This document shows, piece after piece, positions 28,676 through 53,831 of a stretch of 64,000 nt of DNA. The stretch is from Mesostigma viride. Lineage: Eukaryota > Streptophyta > Mesostigmatophyceae > Mesostigmatales > Mesostigmataceae. Where the stretch lies: contig RPFO01000072.1 of NCBI GenBank assembly GCA_009746045.1, forward strand, positions 5,729,238-5,793,237, given 5' to 3'. The position numbers and the translations under genes are program-made. Numbering within the stretch: position 1 is the stretch's first letter; every line of letters starts with the position of its first letter. The notes beneath the pieces are model-generated. The model saw nothing but the letters and a program-made list of their open reading frames with translations, did not search any database and was not told the DNA's origin.

Positions 28676-31600
28676 CTAGGCGTCCCCCCTATGGGGCAGG
28701 GTTGCCTGCTTGCCATAGGGGTTCATCAAGTGGTACAACAGCTGATATTGTTCAGCTGCCTGCTGAGGCACTTTAGTGAGTGCATCAGCAGCGTTGTGTT
28801 TGTCCTCCACGTGACGGGTGGACTCCCAGTAGGTGGACTCCTGTTTCAGGACCACCCAGTCAAGATCAGTGTGGACAGCATAGGGGTTAGCAAGGAAACT
28901 GAGGACTGACTGACTGTCAGTGAGCAAGTGTGCCACCACCCCAGCATTGCTGCCTGCTTGCATCTGCAACCAAACCAGCACATGATTCAAGTACCTGGCA
29001 TGAAGCACTGCTGACACCACTGCCCTGCACTCAGCAGCATTGCTGCTGACAGCCTTGCGTCTATGCAACCGGCTGTACCATGAAATGAGAGACAAGGGTG
29101 CATCATCATTCTGCACAAAATACAAGCCTGACTCCCTTGCCTGCAACTTGGTAATCTGCCTGGACTCCATGGAACTATCCATCATAGCTTGGATGTGAAT
29201 GGTTTTGTGGAGATCCAAGGAGTGCAAGATAAGGGGAGGGCCCTCCTGGAGAGTTTTGGTGATGGCTTTGTGACCTACTTGCATCAAGACATCATCATCA
29301 ACTCTGCTAACCACAGCCAGGTGAGGTGCACACGTTGAGCACAACCACCCCAGCTTGCCTCTAATGGTAGGACAGGCTCCAGGTTTGATTTTTGTTTGCA
29401 AAACCTCCAAGCAGCTGTGCATGTAATCATTGGGAGAGTAGAGTGCACACACCCACTGGTTTTGATGCTGCTGGAGTTGTAACATTGTGCCACAAAATTT
29501 TATGGCAGTGGTGCCCAGCTCTACTTGCTTGCCAATCTCAAAATGCTGTGACACTTGTTGAATAAAATCATCCACAGCACGCCTTGGCCCAGCAATCAGC
29601 TGATCATCCCCATGCCACACAAAGGTGAGAATGCCATGAGGGTGTGGGACCACAAAGAAGCAAGGGTCTATGTCATCATATCTAGCCCCTAACTTTTCAA
29701 ACACAGCCTGAGCTGACATCCTGAAAATGCGAGGAGCTGATTGCAGCCCTTCAACACCTATGTTAGCTTTCAGGTACTGCTGAGGGATGTGTTTTGCCCA
29801 AACTCTGGGAGTGGAGACTACGTACACCTGACCATGCCACACTTGTTGTGCTATCTCAGGTGAGCCTTTCAGGAAAGCCCTTTTAATGTCTGTAGCCTTA
29901 CAGATATAGTCATCCCCATCATTGAGATGACCCACAAAGACAGACAGCAAGATTTTTAGGGATGTTTGCTGAATGCCTGGCGTGTACAACTCTGCCTCTG
30001 TCAGATCAGTGGTGCCCTTGAACTCTGTCACACAAGGTCTAGCATGAAAGATGACTGACCCATCTGCTGCTGGCTTATGTTTACACACAAACTTCAGGCG
30101 CAAGTGCTTGCACCCTGCAGGCTTTTTGTCAATAGGTGTGACAGGGGGAGTATGAGAAGGACTAAGAGGATCTGGCACTACCCATTCTTCCCTGGCCTTG
30201 TTAAAGGCCTCCACCCATTTTAGGAATCCTATGTGTGTGCGACAGTCTTGCTCTATCTGTTCATAAGAAAGAGGAGACATTTTAGCCACATCATGCTTGC
30301 CCAATCCAAATGAGTTGGGATGAAGTTTTTGGTTGTGAACCAGGTCTGCCACACAGGGTTCTTGCCCTGGGGCATACTTGGGTGTAGCAAATTTTACAGA
30401 AGCAATGTTGGTGTTAAGAAGTTTTTCAAGAGAAATTTTGAAATGATTCAGATCAACACCACCCATGTCCTGGATGGATAGTCTATCACTGGATATGAGG
30501 ACACCAGGGTAACAGAGAAAAGGATCCCCCAATAAAGCATTCCCTTTATAACCTTCCAAGACCTGAAAAGGAGTGGGGATACCAAGTATAGTCAACATGA
30601 CCTGACCTAATACCTTGAGGGATGACTGCCCTGAGAAATCAGCCACATGGTGCCAGGGTGAAGGTTCCAAAGGCAAATGGGGCACAGCCAGGGCACTGAT
30701 AATGCTGACCTGGGCTTGTGTGTCCACTGCAACCATAAATGGGCTATTGTCATTCTGCCCAACCTTCCCCACCTTAGCTGATCCTGCAGCAGTTTGAGCT
30801 TTGGCTCTATGAGCTGCTTGTAAAATGCGAACAGCGTCTGCTAGGCTGCGTTTGGAAGGTGCAGCTAGTGGCTGAGCTATGTTCACACTTGTAGAGGTGA
30901 TAGGTTGCTGATCACCTGTTTTGCCAATGTGACCCTCTGCTGCAGGGGGCCAATCCTGCAGTGACTGCCTGCAATCATCAAGGGTGACCTGGGTGTCACA
31001 GTGGGTGTGGCTCTCACACTCACCAGTGGGTGTTCCAAACAACCACTCACTGGGCAACGCTGGGATGCCAGGCAACTGTACAGGGCTGTCGGCCAACAGC
31101 TCTTCCTCCTCTGCCACGTCTGACACAGTTGGAAAATACAATTTCATCCTGTGAGGTGAACACCTGTGAATTTTTCCCGTGTCATTGTGTTTAACTAACA
31201 CTGTCCTGCCAGTGGTGTTAAACTTTAGGATGGTGGCTGGCCCATGCCAGGTACCCACCTTGCCTAGTCCCGACTCCTTGTAGAATAGGACCTGATCCCC
31301 TTCTCTGAAGGTGGGACGTGGATGCTTTGCATCCTTGACAGCTAACCTGCTAGCTGTCTGTGCTCGCTGTGCGTTGTAGAGGGCTAGTACCTCAGGTGGA
31401 TAAATGCCTGCATGCAATCCATCTGGTGTAATGACCACCCCTTGTGGGGTTTTCATGAGTGGCCTCCTGTTGAGGACTTGGCACAACCTGGTGGACCACA
31501 GAGCTCTGTCAGCATAGGACCCACTGTCAGCCAGCAGATTGCCATCTTCTTTGGCTACAAGGGTTTTAATGGACCTGATGGCCCTTTCAATAATGCCTTG

Positions 31601-32161
31601 CCTCTCATGATCTTCTAGCCCAGCCAGATCAATAGCCTCACACCCTGGTTCATTGGCAAGACATGTGAACTGCTGATCCAGTAACAATGCCTCCACAGGG
31701 TAGTACCTGGCCTGAGCAATCAAGAGAGCCCTGAGCAACTGTGTCTTGTCCATTCCAGGTAATGGTTCAATGGTTGTGTACCTTGACCATGCATCTTTAA
31801 GTGCCAAGTAAGATTGTCCTTTGATATGAAAGACATCTCCTACCACCCTGCCCTTGCTCTTAGGTGGGGTAGCTACATGCCACTTAGGGGGTTTGGGTGC
31901 ATTGAACTGACAATGCTGGCAGTGGGATCTGACCACCTGGCATGCACGTCTGAGTGCTGCCCCCCCTATTGCTGCTGCCACCACCTCTGCACTCACTTCA
32001 TGCCCATAAAGGAAATGCAACTGCAAAGCAAGCTCCTGAAAACTGATCTGAGCATCCTCTGCTGGGGACACTCTGCACACCTTGGGAACCATAGATGTGA
32101 AGGTTGGTTTAGAGACATAATCTTCTGAAACCAGCTGTAGCACCTTTCCAGAACTGCTCAC
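28676..32161 (-). CDS. Copia-1b pol: integrase, protease, RT, RNase H in one frame
   Basis: 1161 codons, uninterrupted. Integrase zinc ligands are H49, H54, C81 and C84. The catalytic residues are D108, D161 and E191, with 29 residues between the last two. An SH3-like C-terminal module (GDQVLFYKE...) follows. The retropepsin-like domain has VAVDTQAQVSIIS and ALLGDPFL, with Q in place of the triad glycine. RT has TDIKRAFLKG and HGDD, and RNase H has DSS, AECRAVVS, TDSQ and ADALTK. No second protease lies upstream of integrase. The 5' edge is a GTG made by a one-base deletion near 32189 and is not a real start. In copy 1a the frame continues upstream into gag. Confidence 0.92.
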   Translation of the reverse strand: MSSSGKVLQLVSEDYVSKPTFTSMVPKVCRVSPAEDAQISFQELALQLHFLYGHEVSAEVVAAAIGGAALRRACQVVRSHCQHCQFNAPKPPKWHVATPPKSKGRVVGDVFHIKGQSYLALKDAWSRYTTIEPLPGMDKTQLLRALLIAQARYYPVEALLLDQQFTCLANEPGCEAIDLAGLEDHERQGIIERAIRSIKTLVAKEDGNLLADSGSYADRALWSTRLCQVLNRRPLMKTPQGVVITPDGLHAGIYPPEVLALYNAQRAQTASRLAVKDAKHPRPTFREGDQVLFYKESGLGKVGTWHGPATILKFNTTGRTVLVKHNDTGKIHRCSPHRMKLYFPTVSDVAEEEELLADSPVQLPGIPALPSEWLFGTPTGECESHTHCDTQVTLDDCRQSLQDWPPAAEGHIGKTGDQQPITSTSVNIAQPLAAPSKRSLADAVRILQAAHRAKAQTAAGSAKVGKVGQNDNSPFMVAVDTQAQVSIISALAVPHLPLEPSPWHHVADFSGQSSLKVLGQVMLTILGIPTPFQVLEGYKGNALLGDPFLCYPGVLISSDRLSIQDMGGVDLNHFKISLEKLLNTNIASVKFATPKYAPGQEPCVADLVHNQKLHPNSFGLGKHDVAKMSPLSYEQIEQDCRTHIGFLKWVEAFNKAREEWVVPDPLSPSHTPPVTPIDKKPAGCKHLRLKFVCKHKPAADGSVIFHARPCVTEFKGTTDLTEAELYTPGIQQTSLKILLSVFVGHLNDGDDYICKATDIKRAFLKGSPEIAQQVWHGQVYVVSTPRVWAKHIPQQYLKANIGVEGLQSAPRIFRMSAQAVFEKLGARYDDIDPCFFVVPHPHGILTFVWHGDDQLIAGPRRAVDDFIQQVSQHFEIGKQVELGTTAIKFCGTMLQLQQHQNQWVCALYSPNDYMHSCLEVLQTKIKPGACPTIRGKLGWLCSTCAPHLAVVSRVDDDVLMQVGHKAITKTLQEGPPLILHSLDLHKTIHIQAMMDSSMESRQITKLQARESGLYFVQNDDAPLSLISWYSRLHRRKAVSSNAAECRAVVSAVLHARYLNHVLVWLQMQAGSNAGVVAHLLTDSQSVLSFLANPYAVHTDLDWVVLKQESTYWESTRHVEDKHNAADALTKVPQQAAEQYQLLYHLMNPYGKQATLPHRGDA

Positions 32162-32419
32162 TGCTCTGACAGTGGGGCATGCAGAAGAAGAGGTGAAGCA
32201 GGCACACTCAAGCCAGCATGAGAGGGAGACTCACACTTCTTGCCGTAAGGAGGCCGCTTGCAGTCCTTGGGGTCACCGTGGGGCGGCCCGTGGCACTTGT
32301 GGCACAGGACGTCCAAATGCCCCAGCTCGTCCACGTTCTTGCGGCAGGTGGGCCGCAGGTGGTACTTCATGCCACAGCGGGTGCACCGCTGAGAAGACTT
32401 GTCCTCCTTGTCCTGCTTC

Positions 32420-32481
<62 letters not shown>

Positions 32482-32796
32482 ACTGTTGTTGTTGTTGTTG
32501 CTGGAGCTGCCCCCCTTGGAGGGAGACTGCCCCTTACCCTTGCCCTTGCCCCAGCCCCTGCCCTTGCCCTTGCCCTTGCCCTTGCCCTTGCCCTTAAACA
32601 TTTGTCCCAGCAGGGACTTGACTTCTGCCATAGTGACAGGTCTCTTGCTCCTGTCTTCCCTCTCCCTATCCTCCTCCTCCCTCTCTTCCCCCCTGACCCT
32701 CTTTACAGAGGTGCCCATGGCCCCCTGGCTAAGGGGAGCCAAGGCCAGCTTGATATAATCCAATGCCTCCTTCATGTCCTCCCAGTACTTTGCCAT
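32158..32796 (-). CDS. Copia-1b gag C-terminus with basic run, poly-Asn and zinc motif
   Basis: Begins MAKYWEDMKEALDYIK, equivalent to residues inside the 10194-12923 frame. It then has an acidic/basic Arg-Glu stretch, (GK)n, a poly-Asn tract and the Cys/His zinc motif. The frame ends early because one base is missing in the AAG repeat (GCAGAAGAAGAGGTG here against GCAGAAGAAGAAGGTG in 1a). Expected role: nucleocapsid-like RNA binding. Confidence 0.82.
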
Positions 32797-35135
32797 CCTG
32801 TGGCAAGCATAGCGTAGGTGTTTTTGTCAAGTTTGAGTTTCTCAAGGAAGAACGCAGCAAGAACTTGTGATCTAGCTGCTGGACATCAGGACGTGCTTTG
32901 ATGGCTAGCTCATATTTCTTTGTCTCAGCCACATAGTCCACTGATGTGACCCTGTATTCCTCTACCCACCTGAATGCCCCATATATGTCCACAGATGAGG
33001 GGGTGGAGAGGAGGTCAGTTAGCTCCTTCATGAAAGCCTCCCAAACTGCCCTAGCCTGCGTGTCCTGCCACTTGGGATACCTACGCTGGAAGACAAGAAT
33101 GAGATTCTGAATCTGAGAAGAGGACTGATGGTAGAAATCCCCCTGCATGAGAGATCCAAACCAATTCTTGACATTCAGTTCCTCCCTAGCCAGCTGCAGA
33201 GAGAGAAGTGCATGATTCCCCTGCTCCCTAGTATACCCCTCAGGCAGCCCCCTGACATTAATCCTATCCACAGGACGGTTTTCATTGTAAGTGGGCAACC
33301 TAGAGGGGGATGCAGGGGGAGAGGGAGAAGATGGTGTTGCTGCTGCAGCATTCACAGGAGAGACCTGCTGAGAGGGAAGTGCTACTTGAGTGAGCTGAGC
33401 AGGATGGGCAAACATGGGCTGTGTAGGAGGGTTAGACAACATAGGGGTGGGTGGGGGTGTGAGTGTGTGTCACTTCCCGCCTCCTGCTGCGGGCCTCCTC
33501 CCAATCATGGAAGGTGGGAGAGAGGGACACTTCATCGTCAGTAGGGTTAGTAAGATCATGATGCAACCAGGTAGGCAGAGTTAGCCACCTACCCGCCCCT
33601 CTCAGGATGGCGTTGTGCAGGAGCTCCAGCAAACGCACCAGACGCACCCTGCTGCCCTGCACCCTCCTCCCTGAGAGGAGAGCCTGCAGGGCAGGCAGCA
33701 GGTCGTCGCACACCCTACGTGTGCCCGCTTGGAGGTTGGGCAGGCCCAGGATGTGCGTGATGATTGCACACACCAGGCTGCCCGCCTCCGCGACGTGCAT
33801 CTGCTGGCTCCTGTCGGCCAGCCCACGGAAGGAGGCTGTGGCTGTCTGTATGGCACGCCACACGGCCTCATCACCAGGGTGATGAAGTCGCGACCTTGCA
33901 GGTCGCCCTCCAGCAGTGCTGGTTGCTGCCCAGCTGCGGTGGGACCCTGGGGCCCCTCCGGCCCTGCCAGGGACTTGTCCTTGTTGCGACTAGAGGGGGC
34001 CTGCCCCCCAGAGCCGCTGGAGGTGCCCGTGACACCCTCCATGGGGGCTGCATCCCCCGCCAGCGCCGGAGGCGCCGGCGTCGCTGCCGGGGTCCCTGCG
34101 ACCCCGGGCGCTTGTGTCGCCGCCGGGGTCCCTGCGACCCCGGTGGCCTCCTCAGCCACCTGGCCCCCCACGCTGGGCGGGGGAGCCTGCGGCTGAGGTT
34201 GGACCCTCTGACCTGCCAGAGGGTCCTGGGTGGCTTCACCACCCATGGGCGTGTTGGGGGCGTCTGCCGCCCCGCGCCCCGTCGCAGGCGGCATCGCAGC
34301 CGCCTCACGCCTATCCGGGCCCCAGCCAACTGGCGTGACTTGGGGCCACGCTGGCAACGGAGTCAGCGCGATCTCTGGTCTGGAGACCACGCGCAGCGCC
34401 TCTCTCTGGCGCTGCCTGGACGCCCACTGATCAACAGTGCCGGGGTTGTGCCTCGGCCGATTGGCGAAACAGTACAGCCAAACCGCCACCTGAACCAGTG
34501 GGAGCTGCATCCTAAGACGCCCCTCGATCAGCGAGTGCACCCGATGAACCTCTATCGCGTGTATCTCCTCATCTGGAAGCAACTGAAAACGATCGAGCAA
34601 GATCCGGCCGTTCACCGCAATGAACGCCGGGATGTCGTCCTCCCCAAGGGGGAGAAAATGGGGTGGGCGCCCGAACATGACCGGGGGCGGAACATGTTCC
34701 CCATACCGGTCAATGTCCATGGTGGCCATCTGTCGGCCCACGGAAAGGTTGCCAGACGTCGCAGGTGTCTGCGACGAAAGCTCAAGCGAAGGCCGAGGCC
34801 TCGCAGGCGGCACCTCGCCATCCTCCTCGGAGGAATCACTCCGCTCACGACCCCCGTCACCTGCGACGGGGAACGTCGTGCCCGGGGGACCTGCCCCCCA
34901 GGTGCCATGGCGGACAAACCGCCAGTGGCAAACGGCCGCCCGCTCGCCATCCCCCGGGCGCCGGGCCCCACCTGCGGGCCCCGACGCCTGGGTTGGTCAG
35001 CGACCACCGTGCGGAAGGGACGTTGGGCGTCACCCTCGCATCGGTGGTGGAGGGCGTGCCCTCCGGCGAAAGGCGGGGTGAGGTGCGCCTGGCAGGCGCC
35101 TTCCCCTTGTTGTTGTTGCCGTTGTTGGAAGCCAT
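32797..35135 (-). pseudogene. Copia-1b leader and gag, frameshifted
   Basis: The counterpart of 12924-15260. The first ATG is at 35135. The leader with FGRPPHFLPLGEDDIPAF spans 34813-33602, the helical block (WRAIQTATASFRG) 33863-33440, and the gag core 33442-32800. Sequence differs from 1a by several substitutions and small indels, for example a 9 bp difference in the GTTGTTGCC run just after the start and a 4 bp difference near 33447. The mid-gag frame break is shared with 1a. Confidence 0.7.
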
Positions 35136-35164
35136 ATCTTTTTTTTTGCTTGTAAAAAAAATAT

Positions 35165-35180
35165 CGAACTTTTCAGTCCA
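35165..35180 (-). other. Copia-1b primer-binding site candidate
   Basis: The minus strand reads TGGACTGAAAAGTTCG directly inside the 5' LTR, as in copy 1a. Confidence 0.5.
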
Positions 35181-35635
35181 AGTTGGATGGAGACTAGGGA
35201 CGACGAACAACTGCGAAAGCTGAGAGCGAATGATGATTGTATTACAATAATACAATGAGAGAGCGATGAAAGCTGAGGGCTCAGAATGGAACTGGGCAGA
35301 CTCGGGTGCTGTGGCACTCCCCAGTGCTACGCCTATATGCCTATGGCGGTGCTACCTGCAGCACACGACCAGTGGACAAGTGTACACCGCAATGCCATGC
35401 GACCACGTCACTAGCAACCAGCTAAGACTCGGCCCGTCAGGCCCGGCTACACCGGACCTGGCGGGTCGAGCTAGCACCTAGGAACAGTCTGGCACTAACC
35501 GCACATCGGTCCACATGACACCTCAGTACCGTACACCCTGCCGTACTGTACTGAGGTGTCCCGCTCAGCCGCGGTAGGCAATACGCGGCGCGCAGGCCGG
35601 AAATCCGTGTGTCAGCCTAAGCATCTCATCTAACT
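35181..35635 (-). repeat. Copia-1b 5' LTR at the Copia-2 junction
   Basis: 455 bp with the same AGTT...AACT ends. The next bases are AAGGC (35636-35640), not GCGAC. The break in similarity to copy 1 falls exactly here. Confidence 0.94.
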
Positions 35636-36081
35636 AAGGCGAAACCCCACAGATCACCCACAACAGCTCATCAGAAAACATTGCTGACCCCCAGACGGGA
35701 GTCGGCGCCGGTCAGCTGCCCCTTATCGAACCAGATACAACATCTACGCGAAGCATATGCAAAAACACAAGCTCCTATACTCATTCCAACCGTGGAAAAT
35801 CAGGGGACCTGTCGCCACCTCACCAGCATGGTGGATGGGTCAGCCAGTCCGTGAAACTCCGCCTTAAGACGGCACCAGGGAATCGAACCCCGCCCACAAA
35901 CCACAGATCTGGGGAAACCTCAGACTGAGATGAAAACCCCAGATAGACATCTCTCCATCAGAGACAATGTCAGACATTCCCACACCAGAGACATGTCTCA
36001 CCCCTCAAGGTGTGCTCAGGATTATGTACAATCAAGCTCCCAGCCTGATATCCAGAGACTTAAGCACCCAGCTCTCAGCTT
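35636..36081 (-). other. Copia-2 3' noncoding region
   Basis: 446 bp after the RNase H stop without coding potential. The minus strand carries GGGGTTCGATTCCC (about 35890-35904), an exact Pol III B-box/T-arm match with a pairable stem. No complete tRNA can be folded around it because no matching 5' acceptor strand is present. Confidence 0.55.
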
Positions 36082-36603
36082 TTAGACAGATAGACCGACT
36101 TGACAGTCAGCATTCATGAGCTTCCTCAGTACATTGTACTGGGCTGGGGCCTTGTGTGGCAGCTTGGTCAAAGCATCAGCAGGGTTCTCCTCGCCAGGGA
36201 TATGCTTCAAGTCAACCAAACTGGCCAACTCCTTCAGCAACAAATAATCCAGGTCCCGGCTTCTGGCCAGTTGCTTGTGAACAAACTGGACCATACCCAT
36301 GCTGTCTGTTAGCAACAACGTCTCCATCTGCAAGGTCCAAGGGGTAACTGAAGCCAGCTCCAGCATTAACTCCTTTATGTACAATCTGGACTGGATCCCC
36401 TCGCATATGGCCCTGCATTCTGCCACATCTGAACTGATACAGACCCTCTTCTGCAGTCTGCTGTACCAGCTGAACAAACTTGCCCTGCTCTGATAAAAAG
36501 CAAACAGAGCATGCAGCAGATCTCCCCCTGACCTTGGTAACCTGGCGAGCATCCATGGAACTGTCAACAAAGATCTCCAAGGTGATAGGCTGGGCAAAGT
36601 CAA
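36082..36603 (-). pseudogene. Copia-2 RNase H part
   Basis: Contains FSWYSRLQKRVCISSDVAECR (the RNase H glutamate), LLTDSMGM (D) and HIPGEENPADALTK, then the C-terminal tail. The preceding RNase H block with FVDSSMDARQ lies in the other frame, and the break is near 36484. Useful coding starts there, while the rest of the listed 5' extension is out-of-frame sequence. Confidence 0.8.
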
Positions 36604-38449
36604 TCCCAGACAAAATCAGATCAGGGGTACTCTCCACCAATCGGGCTATGACTCGAGGCTTCTCATCCTCAAGCACATCATCAGGCATTCTGCTATGGAC
36701 CATCAAAGACGGACCACAGATGCTGGCAAACCAGGCCCACATGCCTCTCAACTCAGGTCCTGCAGCCTGGGTGATCTTCTCTGGCAAGGCCTTTACAATG
36801 GTCTGTTTATAATCTCCTCCAGCCTGAAGCCTGATACTCCACTCCCCATCCCTCCTGAACAGGGTAGCCTGCATTCCACAGAACACTACAGGCTTGTTGG
36901 GCTCCTGCCACAGCTCCTTGCCCAGTGAAAACTTGCCACTGATGACAGGAATAAACTTCTTCAGCCAGGTCGTGGGGGCTAGCAAATGCAGATCATCTCC
37001 ATGCAAACTAGCATACACTGGCAGACCCTCCCATTGGGCCAGCAACAAACAGGGATCAACTGAAGACACTCTCAAGCCACACTCACTGATCAGAGCTTCC
37101 TGCAGCGTGAGTCTCCAGATGATTGGGCTCGACCTGAGTCCTTCCAGGCCCTTCAGAATAACCAGGAAATGTTGATGCAGCTCCAGCTTCCAGATAGCAG
37201 GCACCTCAACACAGTAAGGCTCATCCTGCTTCCACACCCTCCTGGCCACTTCTGGATCAGATTTTAAAAATGCCCTCTTGAAGTCCAGCAGCACTGATGA
37301 CATAGCTGCTCCCCTGTTCAGCAACCCCACGTAGAGACATAGCAAAATTCTCCATGTGTCGTGTAACATTCCTGGCGTGTACAGCTCCTCTCCTAGCAGA
37401 CTCCCCGTGCCGTGATACTCATTCAGGACAGGCCTGACATGGGGCACTGATACCTCATCCACAACCTTCCTCTTCAGCACAAATCTCAAAGCAAGCTTCC
37501 TTGATGCTGGGGGACGCCTGTCTGTTGGTGCAGCACACTCAAACTGCAACCACTCCTCCAATGCCTTGGAGAAGGCGAGCTTCCAAGCCTCAAACAAAGT
37601 AGGCGAGCTCATCTCTTGGACTAGCTGGTCATATGTCAAAGGAGAGTGTGCAGCAAGGCTCCTGTGAGTTATGCCAATACTGCTGGGGTGCAACACAGCT
37701 GGAATCACCAAACTGGCTGCTGGGGGCACCTCCCCTTCATCCCATTTTACACCCTTGACCGGCTTGGCCCTGCACCTGATTGGAAATGTTGTCCTGAAAT
37801 TTTCTAGGGGAATCATCCCCCAGCCATCTCTTCTCAGAGCTGTAGCTCTGATAGAAATCCCAGGATTGCCCAGAAAATTCTGACCCAAAATCACAGGGCC
37901 ATCATAGTCCTCTAGGACAAGGAAGGTCACATCCACACCCATGACAGGGGCAGTAACCTCTCCCAACACCCTTAGATGCGTCCTACCACTGAAATCAGAC
38001 ACCCAGGGGCAACTTGGTTCACCGACCAGCAGTTCTCCTGTATGCTGAGGTCCCATGACAGAAACCTGTGCATTGGTATCTATTTCCATGGCAGCTACCT
38101 CAGGTTCATCCAACTGGACAAGCTTGGACACCTTAGGCTCCTTCTTGGCTCTTTGCAAAGCCTGTACAATATCTGATAGACGCACACCCCTAGGCCTGGT
38201 GTCGGGCCGCTCCGGAGGTGCAGCCTGTCCGCCTGTTTGCCCAACCACCGTATGTGAAGGTACCCCAGGGGCCGGGCCAGGGTCACCCTGAGGGCTCGAT
38301 ACAGCTGTAGCACCCTGATCAGGAAGTTCCACGTCACCCCCGCCTTGTACACCAACGGGCACCTGGAAGAGGTCTCCTTGATTACCTCCCCGGGGACGGA
38401 TCTTTGACCAGGACAGACGGTGCACTGCTTGGGAGCCATCAATGGCCAC
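36212..38449 (-). CDS. Copia-2 protease and reverse transcriptase
   Basis: After a variable linker comes a retropepsin-like domain, MEIDTNAQVSVMG (about 38052-38090) with the closing VILGQNFLG, so the triad is DTN. RT follows with LDFKRAFLKSDPEVARRVW (motif A) and YASLHGDDLHLL (about 36991-37010, HGDD box), and then the first RNase H block FVDSSMDARQVTK. The frame leaves RNase H near 36484. The last ~90 codons are out of frame. No start codon at 38449 is meaningful; the protein would be cut from a polyprotein. Confidence 0.87.
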   Translation of the reverse strand: MAIDGSQAVHRLSWSKIRPRGGNQGDLFQVPVGVQGGGDVELPDQGATAVSSPQGDPGPAPGVPSHTVVGQTGGQAAPPERPDTRPRGVRLSDIVQALQRAKKEPKVSKLVQLDEPEVAAMEIDTNAQVSVMGPQHTGELLVGEPSCPWVSDFSGRTHLRVLGEVTAPVMGVDVTFLVLEDYDGPVILGQNFLGNPGISIRATALRRDGWGMIPLENFRTTFPIRCRAKPVKGVKWDEGEVPPAASLVIPAVLHPSSIGITHRSLAAHSPLTYDQLVQEMSSPTLFEAWKLAFSKALEEWLQFECAAPTDRRPPASRKLALRFVLKRKVVDEVSVPHVRPVLNEYHGTGSLLGEELYTPGMLHDTWRILLCLYVGLLNRGAAMSSVLLDFKRAFLKSDPEVARRVWKQDEPYCVEVPAIWKLELHQHFLVILKGLEGLRSSPIIWRLTLQEALISECGLRVSSVDPCLLLAQWEGLPVYASLHGDDLHLLAPTTWLKKFIPVISGKFSLGKELWQEPNKPVVFCGMQATLFRRDGEWSIRLQAGGDYKQTIVKALPEKITQAAGPELRGMWAWFASICGPSLMVHSRMPDDVLEDEKPRVIARLVESTPDLILSGIDFAQPITLEIFVDSSMDARQVTKVRGRSAACSVCFLSEQGKFVQLVQQTAEEGLYQFRCGRMQGHMRGDPVQIVHKGVNAGAGFSYPLDLADGDVVANRQHGYGPVCSQATGQKPGPGLFVAEGVGQFG

Positions 38450-39327
38450 CCAGCACTTATGGCCAGCGGCTCATCTACTCGGGTCACCACCCCATCATGC
38501 CAGCTGCCACGTTTCCCTGGAAAGCTTGGCTCCTTCCACACAACAACCTGTTGTCCAACGTTAGGTTCTAGGACACTCCAGCCCTTGTCTTTCTGCCTCA
38601 GCTTGAGGAACTTGGCCTCTAGCTTCTCCTTCCATGCCTGCTCAGCATCAGCTGGCTGCATCCTGGTGCATGTGCAGCATAAGAGGATTGATGGCAATGT
38701 CACCAAAGAACATGGGAGTCCTGAGGTTCAGTCTATCCTCCACAGAACGTAGCCATGCAGATGTCACAATGGCAGATGACGTCCTTGGAATCCTCTCCAC
38801 CAGCAGCACAGTCTTGATCTCTTGGATGGCTCTCTCCACAACCCCTTGCTGGCCGTGGCTCTCCCTGGGTGTAATCAGCAACTCTGGAAATTCTGGCAGG
38901 TTCTCACAGCACTCAAACTGAATGTCACACTGCAGCAACTCCAACCCAGGGTACCTGCTCCTTGTCAACTTCAGAGCAGCAATCAACGTAGGCTTCTCCA
39001 TGTCAGGCAGGATCTCTAGGGTCTTGTACTTGGTGGATATCTGTCCACTGCCACCAGCAGTTTCAAACCCCTGATTCTCTGAATATCTACCTGCACATGG
39101 CCTGGCTGCAAAATAGGAGACCTGGCATGAGACTGCTTGGGCTTTCTAGCAACTAGCCTGCACCTGCAAGCTTGAGCAACCTGTTGGCAATTAAATGGAG
39201 TACAACTCACTTCCTCCCAGCCGTCTAGTAGCAACTTGCAAAGACTGAGCTGCATGGCCAAACATGGTATGCAACCTTGAGGCAATGTCATACAAGAGAG
39301 AAAATCTTTTATTGTCATTATTAGCAC
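38095..39327 (-). pseudogene. Copia-2 integrase, broken into three frames
   Basis: Fragments at 39327-39016, 39001-38648 and 38706-38095. The zinc-binding region is visible as LHTMFGHAAQSLQVATRRLGGSEL in one frame and CQQVAQACRC in the next. The core has HVQVDI (first D), LLQCDIQFECC (second D) and GVVERAIQEIK (E), with 29 residues between the last two, and the C-terminal part has VGQQVVVWKE. At least two frameshifts are needed to read through, so this copy is inactive. Confidence 0.78.
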
Positions 39328-42678: not shown

Positions 42679-42880
42679 CTAGTAGCAGAGAGTAACTCTC
42701 TGCTGAGATGCCATGCATGCCCAGCTCTGGCCTAGCCATACACTATCTTCCACCCCATATGTCATGCAGGCCTTCTAGGCCATCTCCCCATGTCGCCCCG
42801 TGCGAGCATGATCGGGATGCATGATCCATCATGGTCGGTGGTGCAGGTGCACATTGTGCACCCCGAGCAGGTAATTAATA

Positions 42881-43950: not shown

Positions 43951-44153
43951 ACCACCGTCTAGGTCATCTAGTCGCTCTACACGTAAGCCAGCCAATATTT
44001 CAATGCACAAGGCTACACATTTCCATCACCATTCATATTCATCATCCTGAACAACGCGAACACGCGGACAAGATAACGGCATCCTCGAGCTACTGTACCA
44101 TGGTCTGGATTCTCCCGATTTCTGGCCTGCATGCGCTGGTTGTCTCCTTGATA
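43951..44153. repeat. Dispersed ~195 bp repeat, copy B
   Basis: From caccgtctagg to ctccttgata. It includes gtcgctctacacgtaagcca and aatgcacaaggc as in copy C. Ends against the LINE-2 remnant. Confidence 0.88.
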
Positions 44154-45187: not shown

Positions 45188-46030
45188 TTTAAAAATATAA
45201 TTACTTACAGCAGAGTGAAATCACTCAAACCGGCCAAAGCAAACGCCCAGCTATAAACCTATATACAGAGCCATGTCAAAGCTCTATACTACGATAAGAC
45301 CAATGGAAACGCCTAACGGGAGGAACCTAATAGCCCTGCTGCACCGCAAAATCAGCCCGCGTACGGCGGAGCATGATGTCAGCCATGGCCCGAGTCAGCG
45401 CCACCGACAAGCGCTGACGCCAATATGACGTCCAGGTCCGCGCCGACCATGGGGCCCGCTGGCCCTCCAGGTCCAGCCGGTCCTCCCGGAGCCGGCAACA
45501 CTCCTTGAAGAAGGCGGAGGTCAGGGGCCCCATGGCCCCAAACTCCTCCAGGACAAAGGGCACCACACGATGGTGCCCGACGTCGCCGTAGGCCAGGAGC
45601 TTGGCCCGCTCCGCCCGGTCCGCCGTGTAACCTGCCGTGAGGGAGGCCCCAGCCACGTGGCTAAGAGCCAAGGGCCGCGCCACCGAAACGTCAATAAGCA
45701 GATGCCGGCCACCCCGGCCCCTTAAAGTCCAGCACCACGATGTCAGGCCGGTGGTTGGGGGAATAGAAGGCAGCGCCATCCGCATCCTCGGACCGGATGT
45801 TCGCGTGGGGGAAAACCGACCGAATCATGGCGAGCACCACCGTCAGGAGGACAGTGTGCAAATACAAATACCAATTCTGATTCTGTTGGCCCCCCATGCA
45901 GGCAAGGTAGTGAGTCCCCGTGGGATCCAGCGGCTGCCCACAGCTACCACAAGGCCGCCCGGCCGGAACAAGAGGCTGCGGGGCAAATAGCTGGTGCCGG
46001 AGCGCCACCGAGTAGTGGCTGGGAGCCAAG
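45188..46030 (-). mobile_element. Nested 5'-truncated LINE fragment with restriction-like endonuclease
   Basis: An 843 bp insertion in LINE-2 with 15 bp target duplications. It encodes only the C-terminal part of a retroelement protein plus a short AT-rich 3' tail on the minus strand (gtaagtaattatattttt). Long variable target duplications and 5' truncation are hallmarks of target-primed integration. Confidence 0.85.
45327..46030 (-). pseudogene. Zinc motif and PD-(D/E)XK-like endonuclease domain of a LINE
   Basis: A CX2CX9HX3C motif (CGSCGQPLDPTGTHYLAC) is followed by NHRPDIVVLDFKG (about 45720-45760). After a one-base shift in a G/C run comes GRHLLIDVSVARPL, then AERAKLLAYGD and VVPFVLEEFGAMGP. 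The RPD...D arrangement with an upstream Cys/His knuckle is typical of the restriction-like endonuclease at the C-terminus of R2/CRE/NeSL-type LINEs; Dualen/RandI elements of green algae also carry one. The frame ends at 45327 with a tail unlike known families. It is truncated and frameshifted, so not functional. Confidence 0.72.
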
Positions 46031-46854
46031 GCGTCCCATATATATAACCGCATTGAATGCCGGCCTCGGTGTAATCCACGAAGATCAATAGCATGCAATG
46101 GTAAGTAAGAGGCCGGGGGCCCGGCGGCCCACTTCCTCGATCAGGCGGCGAGCAGTCATCAGTGCGCATGGTGACCATTACACAATTGCGGCCAACACGG
46201 AAGCCCATCTGGGACTCACCTCAAATGGGAATCGAGGCTGGCACGCATGCGGTTGAACAGCAGGAGACGCATGAAGACTTTTAGCACGCAGCTTTGGAGG
46301 CATAAGCTGCGGTAGTTGCCGGTATCCGCGGCGGACCCCTTGCCCTTGTAGAGCATGACCCACACAGCGGTCTTCCAATACATCGGTGGGGGATCGATGC
46401 CATATATCGTAGAATCCGGTTGCAAACACCCCGGAGGAAAGGCTCAATTAAGCTCAGGCATCTTAACCATCTCCGGTGAAATATTGTCCACTCCCATATA
46501 GCAGCATCGTTGCGGAGGGTGGAGATGGCAGCAGCCCATACATAATTTCCCGCGGGGTCCACTCATCGTGGGGGCCGTCCACAAGGGGGCCGGAGAGCGG
46601 TGGGACCAGGTAGTCCGTTTCGCCCATGGGCTCCCGCAATGCGGCCGGGGGCTCAATCAATACCAGCTGTAGGTCCGCCGCGGCTAGCCGCAGGGCATGC
46701 AGCGGCAGCGGGGTCGAGCGGCCGGGGGCCGGGGCCGGTGGTCCAGGAGCCCCCGATAGTTTGGCCTGCATGCATGGGAGCTGAACCAAAGCTCAAGGCG
46801 TTCACTGGGGGTGCCCGGGATGTCAGCCCTTTGCGTTCCCGGCGTCCAGTGAGA

Positions 46855-47163
46855 TGGTCGAGAGACCGCCATGCTGCCTTGTGCTGGCCGCTCAACACGG
46901 TGGAGGCCCAGGTCTCCAATGTGGAAACCAAGGTCGTCCACAAGCTCCAGCCCCAGTTCACGACGCTGCACACCGCGGCGCAAGCTTCGGAAACGCATGC
47001 TGCACTTGTCTCTCGCCTTAACCAGGTGGAGGGCAAGTGCGGCGTGCTCATGAAGAAGCTTAATTGAGGCCATCACCGCCCACACCGAGGCCCTGGCCAC
47101 ACAGGTCCCCAAGATAGCGGAGCAGACGGCCACCATTGCATCCCAGCCACCTCGGCAGGATGC
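46855..47163 (+). pseudogene. Coiled-coil ORF, 5' part, interrupted by Copia-3
   Basis: Plus-strand frame rich in heptads: LNTVEAQVSNVETKVVHKLQ..., a one-base shift near 47061-47066, then EAITAHTEALATQVPKIAEQ. It is cut at GATGC (47159-47163), the Copia-3 target site, and resumes in the correct frame at 54894. A long coiled coil before an RRM-like segment is the plan of many LINE ORF1 proteins, so this may be a LINE ORF1 rather than a host gene. The true start is not visible because LINE-2 abuts at about 46790-46850. Confidence 0.6.
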
Positions 47164-47636
47164 AGTTAGTCTCCATGCTTTGCTGTAGACTAAGTCTCAA
47201 AGGCATTGTGAATACAACGTATGAATAAGCCTTGTAAACCCACGTTGGTATGCGAATATAAATACCACGTGGGCTATGCAGATAGGGATGCTAGTCGAGT
47301 CGCATACGTTTCCCTAGATAGGTACTTTGGGTACTGAGGTACGTGACAGATGTCAGTACCCAGTATACGTAGTGTCCTGTCATTGGACGGTACTAGAGTA
47401 TCCTAGATAGGGACCGTACTGCAGCGTGCATTGATCTGTGATCGCACGATGCAGTGACTAGGCAGCTACCTGTCATCGTGCGGCCTCGGGCCAACGGTCT
47501 GCACCCAACGGTCACTGGCGGCGCAGCCGGTGAGAGGAACGTTGATAAAGGGTAAACCTATTTTCTAATGAACCAAGCAATTCATTGCTCACAGCTTTCA
47601 GTGTTCTCAAGCAATATATCCCACCGCATTCTAACT
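47164..47636 (+). repeat. Copia-3 5' LTR
   Basis: 473 bp, AGTTAG...CTAACT, preceded by GATGC. It contains the inverted-repeat-rich block GGTACTTTGGGTACTGAGGTAC and a TATA box. Confidence 0.95.
47257..47264 (+). promoter_or_regulatory. TATA box candidate of Copia-3
   Basis: TATAAATA about 100 bp into the 5' LTR (also at 54515-54522 in the 3' LTR). The transcription start would be expected ~25-30 bp downstream. Confidence 0.5.
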
Positions 47637-47654
47637 TGAATTTTATTTGCTACC

Positions 47655-50108
47655 ATGGCTATCACGAACAAGAATGTCGCTAAGAAGCTTACCTACAACG
47701 AGGATGATGATGGGCAGGATCGGCGGATGCCCAGAGACAACAACAAGAAGCCGGCTGGCGATGCGGCCATTTCCAAGAAAAAGAAAAAGAACAAAAAGAC
47801 TCACAATGGTTGCCAGGACGAGGGGACGGCGGCTGCAAAGCCGACCGACCTACCCCCCTCCCCTGCGAGGCCGGAGGCCGAGACGGCTCCCCCCGGGGAG
47901 ACCGGCTTACCCTCGACTCCGGCGGCCGCCCCAGCCGCAACCACGGCTGGCGCGGCCATGGCTGCGGAGACCTCGGTGGTAAACCCCACTGAGGCTCCAC
48001 AGTCCGGCCCCACGTTGCCATCTCTTCGGGAGCGTATGCCCCGTCAGACGGCCTCGGTGGCACCGGACGGGACGATTACCTTTCGTCCCGCCACATCAAA
48101 CCTTAATGTCCCTTTCGCCCAGGGACATAACCACATTGAGCTAACGTTTGGGCGACCCTCTGCGTCCCTTCTTCGCAAGAAGAAGGACATGGAGAGTATT
48201 AAACTCGCACGGGTGGTGCGAAAACCTGTGGAACCCATCGCCGGACAACCAATGTCCGACGATGAGGTATCCGACACTGCCAGTCTCCCCGATGGGGAGA
48301 CTGAGATCAATCTTACCCCAGCGCTCCTGGCGGTCGAGCAGGCCGCGCTGGTGGCAAATGAAGAACGCCGAGCGCGGCAGCGGGACCGAGAGGTCCGCCG
48401 AGAGGCGGCTTTTCGGCTCGCCGCTAAGCGGCAAGAATATGAAGAGGAAGCCGCCCGTCGCCTGGCCACCCACCAGGCGATGGCGGACGCGTACCGCGAG
48501 GCCACCCAGCGGTTACGTGACCTCTTAAAAAATGCTGACTATCCCATGGACTATGCGGACAGTCAAGACCTGGCCGAGCTTGCTCGGTCAGCACACTTTA
48601 AAACCATGTCCTCCATCACCCAAGCCAGGGTCACGGAGGCCATCTTGGCCAAACATGGGGTGGTAGCTGAAGAAGCCCCCCCGCTGGAAACCACCAGCAA
48701 GAAACCCTCTCCCCCCCAACCCCTGCAGTACAAGAAGGGACTGCTGGCCCTGGGTGCGAGGAAGGGCAAAGAGGCGGACTGTCCAGTCCAGCCTGCTATG
48801 ATCATGGGAGACGCACTCCCTGACATACCCGAGGATGAAGCTGCCTTTCAGGCAGCCCTCCGGGAGCATGAGGTACGCAAGGAGATGAAGCGTCTCATGC
48901 GGGAGGAGGCCAGGAGGAGAGCAGAGGCAGACACCCCTGCCCACCCCTCCACCGATGGGGCTGGACCCAGTGGGGTTACCCGGACACCCCCGGGCTCCCC
49001 CAGGGCCACCATGACCCCCCCTCCCCCTCCCCCACCACCCCAGGTTCGCCCTGTGGGTTGGGGCCCCCTCCCAAGCCAGGGGGGGTGGCCAGGTCCCCAG
49101 GAGGCCCTGGGGGGAGGTGCAGAGGTGCCACAGGCACCCAACAGGCCTGCTGAAGCCCCCCCAAGGAGCGGGGATGTCCTGGAACAGCTCGCCATTCTCC
49201 AGGCCCAGCTGGCCTCGTTGCAAGATCAGCAGTTAACAGCTAACCAGCTGCAAACTGTCGAGGGCCTGCGCGCCCTGATGTCGCGGTATGAGCGGGGGAC
49301 CATCAACCTGGACCCCACCCGCCTGCAACAAGCAACCGACGGCTTCTTGAGGGCCAACCCCCCTCTCACAGGTGTGTTTAACCCTCATAAAAAGGAATCC
49401 AAAATCAATATTGCTGGCTTGCCTGAGGGTCACACTGTTGAACAAGCTAAGCAATTTGTTTTTGCTTTGGAGTATGGGATGGAAGGTCTTAACCTTAGAC
49501 ATCAGTTTAAGGCTCTCAGGGCCTCCTCCACATTCCATCAATCATCTCCTGCAATCAGAGCATTGATTCAAACCTATCAGGAACGTACCCTGACACCTGA
49601 AGCAGCCATTGAACAGTGGCCTACCTTTATCACTGATCTGAAACAGCTAGTGCTTACCAATAACCACATGGAAGCAGTAGAACGTTTCAACTGGCTTGCT
49701 GCATATAAGGTGAACAAGAATAACCTCTCTGGGGATGCAAAAACATACAGGGTAATGATTGAGAAAGACCTTGAGCTTCTCAAGCTCCAACCAAGGTATC
49801 TCATCCACACCTGGCTAACAAAAGCTAATTTGCAACCTTCTGTCCTGGCCACCCTGCTTACAGGCCTCAAGTCCCTCTGGGACAACTTCAGAGCTGCCAT
49901 GCTCTATATCGAGGAGGCAGTGGACCCCCTGGGTACTGGCAACAACCAGGCCCAGGACCCCAAGGTCCAGGGTGTCCAAGGCCACAAACGCAAGGGGCAG
50001 GCCAGCCAGGGGGGGGCACCCAAGACCCACAAGTCCTCCCACCAAGGGGGCAGTGGCTCTCAGGGGCGTGGCAACACGTGGCACCGTGTGCCCCTGCATG
50101 GCAACCCC

Positions 50109-50154
<46 letters not shown>

Positions 50155-53100
50155 GGTCCCAGCAGGGCAACAATAACAACAGGTCCCAACAGGGCCAAAA
50201 CAACAACAACAACAACAGGTCCCAGCAGGGCAACAATAACAACAGGTCCCAACAGGGCCAAAACAACAACAACAACAGGTCCCAGCAGGGCCAGAACCGG
50301 TCCCAGCAGGGAAACAACAACAACAACAACAACAACCAGCCTGGCAACCCTGGGGGGTCCATAAGGTGCCTGAGGTGCTTCCAACGAGGGCACGCACGGC
50401 ACAACTGCCCCAACAACGACTCCCTGGCCAACGGGGTGGATCTCTGCCCGGGCTGCTGGCACGCACGTCATCCCCTGGGGCCTCCAGGCAGCCGTTGCAA
50501 CAGGCCTCGCTACCCAAATCAATGTGAGTTCACTCACCTTATGTACTCTGAGGATGATGATCTCATTACCATTGGGGATGGCAACCAGGGCATAATTGAT
50601 TTTGAGGCAGCAACCTTACTGTCCTCCCAACACCCTGTTCTGGAACCTTACATAAAAGCACTAACCCCTACTGTTGACAACTCCATAGATATCAAGGAGC
50701 TTGCTCATCAGCTGCACCTAGCCATGGGTCATGAAACAGTGGCTGAGGAACTGGCCAGACGGCTGGGGGGTAGTAGCATGGGAAAACAACTCAGGAATGC
50801 AGTAAAACTGGCTAGACAACACTGTCAAGAATGTCAGTTCAATAGCCCCAAACCTCAAAAATGGCATACTGCAACTCCTTCCACCAATAGGGGCATGATA
50901 GTGGGGGATGTGATGCACATCAACAAAGATGTCCAACCCTACCTGATCCTAAAAGACTCATGGTCCAGGTTCACAGTAATGGAACCCCTACCTGGCATGT
51001 CTGCAGGGCAGCTACGTGTTGCACTCATGATTGCTTTACCCAGATTCTACCCAGTTGACAGAATTTTGCTTGATCAACAATTTTCTTGTCTGACTGACCT
51101 GGAAGGGTGTGAAGCAATAGAGATTGCTGGGCTGGAAGATCATGAGGGTCAGGGGGTCATTGAAAGAACCATCAGATCTGTCAAAACCCTACTAGCCAAA
51201 AATCCTTCCAAGGATGCTACTTCAGGGGTCTATTGTGACAGGGCACTCTGGTGTCATGAAATGTGCACAACCCTAAACATGAGACCTGTCTTGCATGCCA
51301 CGTGGGGTGAAGTAATCCCAGCAGGCCTGCAGGCAGGTGTATATCCCCCAGAGGTGATAGCACTGTACAACACTGCACGTGCACAAACCTCAGCAAAACT
51401 GGCAGAAAAAGATAAAACCCATTCCAGGCCAGTATTCCAAAAAGGTGATCAAGTTCTCTATTACAAGGAAAACAGCTTTGGTAAGGTTGGAACTTGGCTA
51501 GGTCCAGTTACCATCCGTGGATTTACCAAAAACAGCAAGACCGTGGAGGTCAAGCACAATATCAATGGGAAGCGTCACAGGGTGAGCTGTCATAGAATTA
51601 AGAAGTATTATTCTCCCATGGCAGACGTGCCTGGGGAAGAGTCTTTAAGCATGGACTCACTACTTCTATCTGGCAACTCCAGCATGCCCAGCAGTAGCTC
51701 TGAGCCACCAATTACTGCTGTTGACAGCACCACAGCACCCTCTGTGAACCCTTCCACCCTCAGTGAAGCCAGGCCCACTTCACAACCTGGGGATTGCTTA
51801 ACCAGGCACGAGGTAGCTGGGTTGGAAGCATTAGCTCAGCCCCAAGGCACCAAATTGTCTGCCAACCCTCCCGCTCTGAGGTCAAGATTGGCAGTCGCCT
51901 TGCAAGCATTACACAGGTCACATAAGCAACAAGCTGCTGTGGCCGCAGGGTTGGCAAAAGTCTCAGCTGTGTGCACTAGTCAGGACCCCTGGACCCTGGC
52001 AATAGACACTCAGGCACAGGTCAGTGTGATCAGTGCACAAGCCATCCCTGGTCTTGAGATTGCACCTTCATTTTGGGCACGGGTGCAGGATTTCTCAGGC
52101 CAAAGCTCACTGGATGTAGTGGGACAAGTGATGCTCCCTATACTTGGTATTCAGACACCCTTCCAGGTGGTGGAGGGGTACTCTGGTAACACCTTGTTGG
52201 GGGAACCTTTTGTATCCTATCCTGGGGTGCTTATCTCAGCTAATGAGCTCAGTGTCACAGGGGTGGGTGCAGTTCCTCTGGACCACTTTAAAATCCCTCT
52301 CTCCAGTATTGTCCCTGGTATGGATGCTGTCATCAAGGCAGTCAACACTCAGTATGCACCAGGGGAGATCCCTGATCTGGACAAGTTAGTGCACAGCCAG
52401 TTCCTCCATCCCTCAGCCTTTGGGCTGGGTAAGTGGGACATAGCCATGCACTCACCCCACCAAATCTCCCACGTCATACAAGAATGCAAAACACAAAAAG
52501 GGTTTACCAAGTGGCTGATGGCCATTGTCCACCAAGCCAGGCAGGAATGGGTCCTGCCCAACCCCAAAAACCCTCAATACAAACCGCCTGTCACCCCTTC
52601 ATGGGACGTGCCAGAGGGAGCCAAAAAGCTCAGATTAAAATTTGTTCTCAAACAAAAACCACAAAAAGTGGGCTCCCCAATCTTCCATGCCAGACCATGT
52701 GTCACAGAATTAAAGGGGACATCCACACTGCCAAAAGGGGAAACATACACACCTGGGCTGCAACAAACCTCACTCAGGATCATGCTCTCCCTCTTCCTCC
52801 ACAACCTCAATGCAGGCCAAGACTATGTCTGCAAAGCCACTGATATTAAAAGGGCCTTCCTCAGGGGGGACCCAGAAAAGGCTGAATCTGTGTGGAAAGG
52901 GAAGGTGTACGTGGTAGACACCCCAGCTGTGTGGAAACCTTATATTGATGAGCCCCACCTTATCATCAACATTGGGGTGGAAGGGCTTGTCAGTGCCCCA
53001 AAAATTTTCAGAGACTCAGCAGAGGAAGTATTCAAAAAGCTCAAGGCCACGTATGATGACCTGGACCCATGCTTTTTTGTTGTACCCACCCCCTCTGGAC

Positions 53101-53831
53101 TGCTGTTCTTTGTGTGGCATGGAGATGACCAACTCATTTGTGGGCCTAGAGCTGAGGTGGAAACCTTTATTCAGCAGGTCCAGGAATCATATGAGATTGG
53201 CAAACAGGTGGAATTGAGCACAACCCCCATCCAGTTCTGTGGCATCATGTTGCAGCTGCATAGGCAGCCAGATCAGTGGGTCTGCTCTCTCTCCCCTCCT
53301 GCAGAATATATCCAAGATTGTCTAGATCTGCTGCAGGACAACTACCTCCCCTTACATATGTGTGCCACTGTTCAGGGCAAACTGGGGTGGTGGTCAGCCA
53401 TCTGTGGGGCTCCCTTAGCTGTCATCAGCAGGGTCACCCATGATGTTCTAGTCAAGATAAAATGCAGTCACATCAGGAAGTTGGTCAATGACTGTCCCCC
53501 CCTCATCCTCCATGGCCTGAATCTGATGGAAGACATCCACATCCAATGTGTCATGGACAGCTCCATGGAGAGCAGAACAATCAATCAGATGGGGGCACGG
53601 GAATCAGGGCTGTTTTTTCTCACCAACAGGTCAGATTACATGTCCCTCACTTCCTGGTACAGCAGGCTACACCGCAGAAAACCTGGCAGCAGCAACTCAG
53701 CTGAATGTCGTGCTGTGGTGTCTGCTGCATTGCATGCTCGTTCCCTGCAGCACATGCTCACCTGGCTACAAACCCAGGCAGGCAGCACATGCAATGTCAT
53801 CTCACATCTCTATACTGACAGCTTTCTGTGA
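47655..53831 (+). CDS. Copia-3 Gag-IN-PR-RT-RNase H polyprotein
   Basis: ATG 47655 is only 18 bp after the LTR, in a strong context (gctaccATGG). Residues 1-560 form a Lys-rich, Pro-rich and helical N-terminal extension. The gag core is at about 580-765 (INIAGLPEGHTVEQ...), poly-Asn and RSQQG repeats at about 819-900, and the CCHC knuckle at C905, C908, H913, C918. Integrase zinc ligands are H1021, H1026, C1057, C1060, the catalytic residues D1085, D1140, E1170, and the C-terminal module about 1262-1320. The protease has D1451 in AIDTQAQVSVIS and LLGEPF near 1514. RT spans about 1655-1900 with TDIKRAFLRG and HGDD at 1822-1825. RNase H starts at VMDSSMES near 1966. The frame stops in YTDS, where a one-base loss near 53824 cuts RNase H. 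Confidence 0.95.

Follow-up and report, generated by a model that had tools for sequence, protein, structure and literature searches.

The order of the pol domains is used for telling the superfamilies of long terminal repeat (LTR) retroelements apart. In Ty3/Gypsy elements a retropepsin lies directly before the reverse transcriptase (RT), a trait also of retroviruses, the protease (PR) is of the PF13975 type and the integrase (IN) carries a W-x-GP motif; in Gmr1-like elements, which have a Gypsy-type RT, the PR precedes the IN. In Ty1/Copia elements target-site duplications (TSDs) are usually 5 bp long. Of two papers, one gives the Copia order as gag-PR-IN-RT-RNase H (RH) (PMC6317226), and the other describes the Gmr1-like Gypsy elements as a known change of the pol order, with IN upstream of RT (PMC3587641). 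The elements reported here do not conform to the Copia order. They lie in a stretch of 64,000 nt of DNA of Mesostigma viride, a member of the Streptophyta (contig RPFO01000072.1, positions 5,729,238–5,793,237, forward strand), hereafter the window, which contains two copies of the family Copia-1 (Copia-1a and Copia-1b, both on the minus strand), together with Copia-2, which is decayed, and Copia-3, which is almost complete. With high probability, in our judgement, they represent a lineage in which a Copia-type RT-RH is joined to an IN and a retropepsin-like PR, neither of which matches Copia, in the fixed order gag-IN-PR-RT-RH.

Copia-3 (plus strand) carries all these domains in a single open reading frame (ORF) of 2058 aa (47655–53831; ORF list and frames), with the end of RNase H out of frame. 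It contains, in this order, a zinc knuckle (residues 905–918; 50367–50408; motif scan, with a weak zf-CCHC_3 match), the HHCC finger of the IN (residues 1021–1060; 50715–50834; motif scan), the IN core with D1085, D1140 and E1170 (50877–51209; alignment to Copia-1b) and a C-terminal IN module with W-x-GP (51432–51605; alignment), presumably GPY/F-like. The retropepsin-like domain follows (residues 1441–1537; 51975–52265; PF13975 on the cut-out domain and hhalign to DDI retropepsins), with DTQAQV from residue 1451 (DTQ, 1451–1453) and LLG at 1514, and then the RT (52518–53354; RVT_2 2.4e-4, below the curated cut-off) with HGDD at 1822–1825 and an RH region (53355–53822), collinear with Copia-1b, that runs to the frame break near the ORF end. 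From the integrase onwards, the same succession was found in the pol ORF of Copia-1b (minus strand, 28676–32161, 1161 aa; RVT_2 2.6e-9, and rve 0.0039 on the IN piece), with HHCC at residue 49, the IN core at residues 93–208 (31538–31885; partial rve match), the retropepsin-like domain at residues 470–566 (30464–30754; PF13975 E 0.11) with DTQAQV at 480 and LLG at 543, and the RT (29372–30211; RVT_2) with HGDD at 850–853. In this copy gag, with a poly-Asn tract and a zinc knuckle, occupies a separate frame (32158–32796, minus strand; ORF list and motif scan). Copia-1a has knuckle, IN and DTQ domain within one frame of 934 aa (10194–12998, minus strand), where no protease was detected between knuckle and IN by frames and Pfam. 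In Copia-2 (minus strand, decayed) HHCC remnants, IN pieces (core piece 38702–38998; alignment), DTNAQV in a retropepsin-like domain (37802–38119; PF13975 E 0.11, beside DUF6898 at 0.10) and the RT (36470–37603; collinear with Copia-1b and Copia-3, without its own Pfam match) were read by eye over three frames. Motif scan, frames and collinear alignments thus agree with the coordinates and the IN-before-PR order that the initial annotation had given for the three families. The triad of the retropepsin-like domain was found to be not DTG or DSG, as would be usual, but DTQ in Copia-1b and Copia-3 and DTN in Copia-2.

Over the collinear pol stretch, Copia-1b and Copia-3 share 54% identity, and either of them 32–34% with Copia-2. 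Between Copia-1b and Copia-3 identity is 62.1% in the IN core, 27.4% in the IN-PR linker, 62.9% in the PR and 61.8% in the RT. Since the identity of the PR-like domain equals that of IN core and RT, and that of the linker is far lower, the domain shows the conservation of an enzyme rather than that of a spacer, which suggests that purifying selection acts on it.

The arrangement recurs elsewhere in the host assembly (440 Mb). Our searches of this genome scored the best candidates only, so that all counts are lower bounds: at least 41 matches were obtained with the Copia-1 pol (40 of 9863 candidates scored), at least 101 with P0002, at least 80 with P0004, at least 70 with P0003 and at least 40 with the Copia-3 LTR. 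A Copia-1-family locus, L004, has an unbroken frame of 1609 aa with knuckle at 374, HHCC at 497, PR at 927 and HGDD near 1298. HHCC finger, integrase, PR and RT are present in L046 (P0004 family, 1320 aa) and L047 (P0003 family, 1224 aa), and IN core, PR and RT in L037 (P0002 family), the frame of which is cut at the locus edge. In all, IN-PR-RT was found in six families of one genome, with gag upstream in Copia-1, Copia-2 and Copia-3. The near-identical LTRs (see below) and the many near-identical copies show that the lineage spread recently. In the P0003-family integrase of L047 (G000:C1668:811400–815800) the catalytic E is replaced by D (GMIDR vs G-x-x-ER); the family nevertheless has at least 70 near-identical PR-RT matches.

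The RT is of the Copia type. RVT_2 matched the RT of Copia-1b with 37.5 bits (cut-off 31.6), that of L046 with 47.6 bits and, below the cut-off, that of Copia-3 with 21.2 bits; the RTs of Copia-2, P0003 and L047 gave no Pfam match, and RVT_1 matched none of the RTs scanned, several of which match RVT_2. When compared as profiles, the new RT and the canonical Copia RT aligned with a probability of 96.7% over 353 columns, while the probability was 0.9% for the two integrases and 1.2% for the two proteases. As a control, a genome search with RVT_2 gave at least 150 matches over the cut-off (148 bits or more; best 150 of 1981 candidates), and two of these places, L088 and L089, were examined. Both have the ordinary Copia order Pol_BBD, gag_pre-integrs (below cut-off in both), rve, SH3_retrovirus, RVT_2; L088 has in addition Retrotran_gag_2 and a knuckle in front, and the frame of L089 begins after these. 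The same pipeline therefore reports the usual order when it is present. Pol_BBD, which we take to be the Copia protease, begins in L088 at the motif WVLDSAASSHM; it matched both ordinary elements and none of the seven PR sequences of the lineage. The usual Copia motifs are a DSG triad and YVDD in the RT; in L088 and L089 a DSA triad and HVDD were noted.

In an RT tree of nine rows, where the metagenome RVT_2 protein P0010 was the only reference row from outside the host genome, the six new families were split from L088, L089 and P0010 with a support of 100/100. With P0010 as sole outgroup, an earlier tree had recovered these groups at lower support. A stable lineage with IN upstream of a retropepsin-like domain, as the initial annotation proposed, is thus supported, the RTs of the six families grouping together and IN preceding PR in each.

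With regard to the integrase, neither gag_pre-integrs nor SH3_retrovirus was matched by Pfam in the IN regions of Copia-1b, Copia-3, L046 and L047, and searches of the PDB with the IN and RT profiles returned nothing. The spacing from the second D to the E, measured by eye, is 29 residues in Copia-3 and 29 to 31 in the lineage, vs 35 in L088.

The assignment of the domain after the integrase was based on sequence profiles, the structure models being too poor (see below). PF13975 (gag-polyprotein putative aspartyl protease) matched seven of seven cut-out PR sequences (best E 0.0044), the individual scans covering almost the full profile, and none of ten reversed or shuffled decoys; DUF6898 and SPT16 each matched one of the seven members. 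A PR profile aligned to four DDI retropepsins with a score of 21.5 over 90 columns, as compared with a maximum of 16.8 in 150 column shuffles. When 60 pol windows were compared with the DDI profile, the eight best all overlapped the PR domain and the next scored 14.0. With an earlier three-row profile the best window scored 27.6, the highest of 300 shuffles 25.4 and the next 16.6. The PR profile was also closer to DDI retropepsins (22.7, 91 columns) than to the local Copia PR (16.4, 16 columns). In the seven PR rows, which include P0011 (labelled Prorocentrum lima), Asp and Thr of the triad are invariant and a late hydrophobic-LG motif is kept; identity to Copia-3 is 63 and 76% for Copia-1 and P0011 (these three being mutually close) and 36 to 47% for the others. 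A pattern scan of loci L001–L047 retrieved no DTG; among the Copia-1-family loci 29 of 30 had DTQ, as did L047, and among the P0002-family loci 14 of 15 had DTN, as did L046; the two loci with neither DTQ nor DTN were L011 and L033. These profile similarities suggest that the domain is a relative of the retropepsins.

A protease upstream of the IN in Copia-3 would have contradicted the initial annotation, and none was detected by Pfam or motif scan. DTG and DSG are missing between knuckle and integrase, as had been claimed, and D[ST]G is absent from the whole ORF; the Copia-1b pol has two D[ST]G, both within the integrase. Neither a retropepsin family nor Pol_BBD was matched by the Copia-3 ORF as a whole, by the segment preceding its knuckle or by the knuckle-finger gap; upstream of IN the same holds for the Copia-1 gag frames and the Copia-1a frame, for the first 496 residues of L004, and for Copia-2, where the gag frames and the gap's longest open piece were scanned (one separate Copia-2 scan was limited to the knuckle part of the second gag frame). 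By eye, the Copia-3 gap from the knuckle end to the first His of the integrase finger measures 102 residues, part of which is a second Cys/His-rich stretch common to Copia-1. Windows over Copia-3 residues 520–1100 scored at most 13.4 with the DDI retropepsin profile; this profile also misses the ordinary Copia PR (0.2%), so that a Copia-type PR could lie upstream of IN without being seen by it, and the argument for a missing upstream protease relies on Pfam and on the short gap. Other Pfam matches upstream of IN were rejected as weak, belonging to unrelated families and lying in many cases on low-complexity stretches; Presenilin (E 2 and 7.5) and a vacuolar membrane protease family (2.5 and 4.3) were at chance level, on the poly-Asn tract. 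Such poly-asparagine (AAC) tracts lie 5′ of the zinc knuckle in gag at 32381–32600 (Copia-1) and 50109–50320 (Copia-3).

Copia-3 is bounded by a 5′ LTR (47164–47636, plus strand), which starts with AGTTAG and ends with CTAACT, and a 3′ LTR (54423–54893, plus strand) 99.4% identical to it, with the TSD GATGC on the left (47159–47163) and on the right (54894–54898). The 40 genome matches of this LTR include 32 that form 16 same-strand pairs 7 to 9.4 kb apart; the other eight, among them the window's own, were left out. In 40-base stretches read over both outer ends of each pair, the ends AGTTAG...CTAACT were found in 16 of 16 pairs and an exact 5-bp duplication in 15; in the exception the right LTR continues into internal sequence, tandem-like. 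Such an LTR, followed by internal sequence at the expected flank as in an LTR-internal-LTR-internal tandem array, is noted at one Copia-3-family place, L068 and L069 (G000:C2022). Copia-1a has the ends AGTTAG...CCAACT; its 3′ LTR (7266–7720, minus strand) adjoins the TSD GTCGC at 7261–7265 and its 5′ LTR (15305–15759, minus strand) the same 5 bp at 15760–15764. In the families read, Copia-1a and the Copia-3 family, TG...CA ends were not encountered. TG and CA ends are those of most LTR retrotransposons according to the abstract of a paper on TARE1 (PMC3701649), and by this measure the AG...CT ends are unusual.

By self-alignment, positions 1–15759 and 19900–35635 of the window are a duplicated segment of at least 15.7 kb with 99.7% identity. 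The LTRs of Copia-1b (3′, 27166–27620; 5′, 35181–35635; minus strand) are 100% identical and those of Copia-1a 99.8%. Because the LTR pairs, including that of Copia-3, are near-identical, the insertions appear to be recent, provided that no later homogenisation made the copies alike. No matching duplication is present on the 5′ side of Copia-1b, the duplicated segment stopping there exactly at the LTR. As the edge of the duplication lies at the outer LTR end and a matching TSD is present only in Copia-1a, the second copy looks like a product of LTR recombination.

Compared with Ty1/Copia, the lineage shares an RVT_2 RT that aligns with ordinary Copia RT, IN upstream of RT and the 5-bp TSD; it differs by a PR that follows IN, by the lack of Pol_BBD, gag_pre-integrs and SH3_retrovirus matches, by the shorter D-E spacing and, in Copia-1a and the Copia-3 family, by the AG...CT ends. 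It resembles Ty3/Gypsy in the retropepsin directly before RT, the PF13975-type protease and the W-x-GP of the IN C-terminal module, but IN is upstream of PR and RT, not after RNase H, and the RT is RVT_2 and not RVT_1. With Gmr1-like elements it shares IN upstream of RT, whereas here PR follows IN and none was detected before it. The DDI1/DDI2 retropepsins, the only solved protease family compared, give a weak collinear profile match (about 20% identity over 90 columns); they are cellular proteins with DSG or DTG, unlike the DTQ/DTN of the lineage. The initial annotation knew of no description of this order, and none of IN-PR-RT was found in the open-licence literature (titles, starts of abstracts and order strings), where strings of the usual order do occur. 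The annotation had also regarded the lineage as a rearranged Copia; the RT agrees with this, whereas neither PR nor IN matches the families of Copia. Since Pol_BBD, gag_pre-integrs and SH3_retrovirus are undetected in the lineage and present in L088 and L089, it is probably not simply a Copia element with a moved domain, and a mosaic or a deep sister lineage fits better.

A number of results weigh against the reading of a Copia-type RT-RH joined to a non-Copia IN and a retropepsin-like PR. The HMM search expected to detect a retropepsin family after the IN did so weakly: single PF13975 matches range from E 0.0044 to 0.22, all below the curated cut-off, and they depend mainly on the domain being cut out (none of three whole ORFs and one of three 221-aa pieces matched); in the database proteins P0003 and P0009 PF13975 was not matched. 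A further version of the PR profile (A7) scored 21.6 and was exceeded by one of 200 shuffles. In single-sequence comparisons of Copia-3 with DDI the PR window (13.74) was not singled out from a gag window (13.95); single-sequence hhalign windows, like a six-frame hmmsearch with DDI, had no power. PDB searches with the PR profile gave no retropepsin. Structure prediction yielded low-confidence models: AlphaFold, run with three sequences, reached a mean pLDDT of 42.8 for the PR stretch and of 31.1 for the whole pol, nearly the whole chain including the RT being below confidence. Because the RT itself is modelled without confidence, the whole-pol model says nothing against a protease. Foldseek/VIA matches of the PR-stretch model (CarD, Mfd, Tudor and similar; no retropepsins) were discarded, as the model was too poor. 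To these are added the missing triad Gly, D-[ST]-G giving way to DTQ or DTN wherever the motif was found, the failure of the DDI profile on the ordinary Copia PR, and a long-branch warning for the RT tree, in which one row has a long branch and, by this warning, the long branches of P0010 and of the new group come together. Finally, among the canonical domains the new IN pairs best with the canonical IN, scoring 20.9 with 92 columns in register; as this weak match is in register over such a length, a remote common origin of the new and the Copia integrases is possible.

Given the triad, the domain after the integrase might be a pseudoprotease of retropepsin descent, kept for folding, dimerisation or packaging, with processing carried out by another enzyme or not needed. 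Q or N at the Gly position wherever the pattern was found, with no DTG, speaks for this. However, Asp and Thr are invariant in the seven rows, the domain is conserved as well as the RT, the families spread recently, and the ordinary Copia elements L088 and L089 also lack the Gly (DSA). Moreover, in a survey of ERV-K, some DTR, DTE, DTD and DTA variants are considered potentially active and others are predicted to be inactive (PMC6058741). On account of the invariant Asp and Thr, of the DSA in ordinary Copia copies and of these non-Gly variants, activity of a D-T-Q/N protease is plausible, and we regard a pseudoprotease as unlikely, though deserving serious consideration.

Alternatively, Copia's own protease could have moved from before to after the integrase, all modules being diverged Copia. 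The Copia-type RT, the in-register match of the new IN to the canonical one and the 5-bp target duplications, like those of other LTR elements, are consistent with it. On the contrary, Pol_BBD is matched in none of the seven PRs and gag_pre-integrs and SH3_retrovirus in none of the INs tested, while the ordinary elements match all three, and the PR profile is nearer to DDI than to the local Copia PR; a simple shuffle thus appears improbable. It is more improbable still, to a degree that we would hardly expect it, that the domain is no relative of proteases and that the elements have none: the individually weak profile scores, the lack of a PDB match and the failed structure models would fit, but PF13975 matched all the cut-outs over nearly its whole length in individual scans and no decoy, and D-T and hydrophobic-LG are kept. 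An artefact of nesting, recombination or misassembly, which the duplicated segment of 15.7 kb and the decayed Copia-2 could bring to mind, is refuted, because several families, located on different contigs, repeat the same order within one uninterrupted frame each, and it is therefore not due to chance or misassembly.

In the most likely working model the PR and IN would have an origin other than Copia's, and one Gag-IN-PR-RT-RH polyprotein would be made, as the undivided frames of Copia-3 and of copies of the Copia-1 family suggest. The PR would dimerise and, working with a D-T-Q/N active site, cut in the poorly conserved IN-PR spacer and in the spacer before RT, thus setting free, on its two sides, IN with Gag and RT-RNase H, and the integrase would join ends of the type AG...CT and not TG...CA. 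The lineage would then be a case for the processing of a single polyprotein with IN next to Gag, would allow testing if an aspartic protease remains active when an amide replaces the triad Gly, and could provide an integrase acting on ends that are not TG...CA; its PR and IN appear worth testing.

In a broader and more tentative reading, to which we give somewhat less than an even chance, these elements could be a deep, unnamed branch of LTR retroelements sharing only RT and RNase H with Copia, with its own AG...CT integrase and its own D-T-Q/N retropepsin between IN and RT, which, in one of the earliest-branching streptophyte algae, would make up a major group of mobile elements and may have escaped notice as surveys discard unexpected orders. 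At least one large plant survey removed polyproteins of unexpected order as likely wrong predictions (PMC6317226); a recently spreading lineage with IN before PR means that such a domain-order filter can hide real biology. In the M. viride genome paper LTR elements are the largest portion of repeats (27.9%), and the word Copia is absent from the main text (PMC6947507).

Among database proteins, P0009 (Mesvir1, from Mesostigma viride) is 97% identical to part of the Copia-1b pol and P0001 is 100% identical to part of Copia-3. Five proteins labelled Prorocentrum lima or Lingulodinium polyedra (P0005, P0006, P0011, P0012 and P0013) also belong to the lineage. P0011, of 200 aa, has an integrase end joined to PR. 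P0013 shares 99% identity with Copia-1b and 99.5% with one copy in the Mesostigma genome; being near-identical to Mesostigma copies, it is likely a contamination. Identity to the closest locus among those compared is 72 to 87% for P0005, P0006 and P0012 and 42% for P0011. Contamination being likely for at least P0013, the relatives with these labels were not taken to show that the lineage has spread into other species. No relatives were found in viral contigs or contigs of prokaryote genomes, nor by a protein search with the Copia-1b pol, and NCBIfam gave no match on six proteins.

Around the Copia-1 copy L011 (G000:C2045:271619–275092) an open frame of 18754 aa was reported, which is odd. ARAGORN returned nothing for the window. 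Downstream of Copia-3, tandem arrays follow in a row at 55981–60850, namely 7-base GC-rich repeats (about 55981–56600), a 173-base array (56980–60063) and a GGTG array (about 60150–60830).

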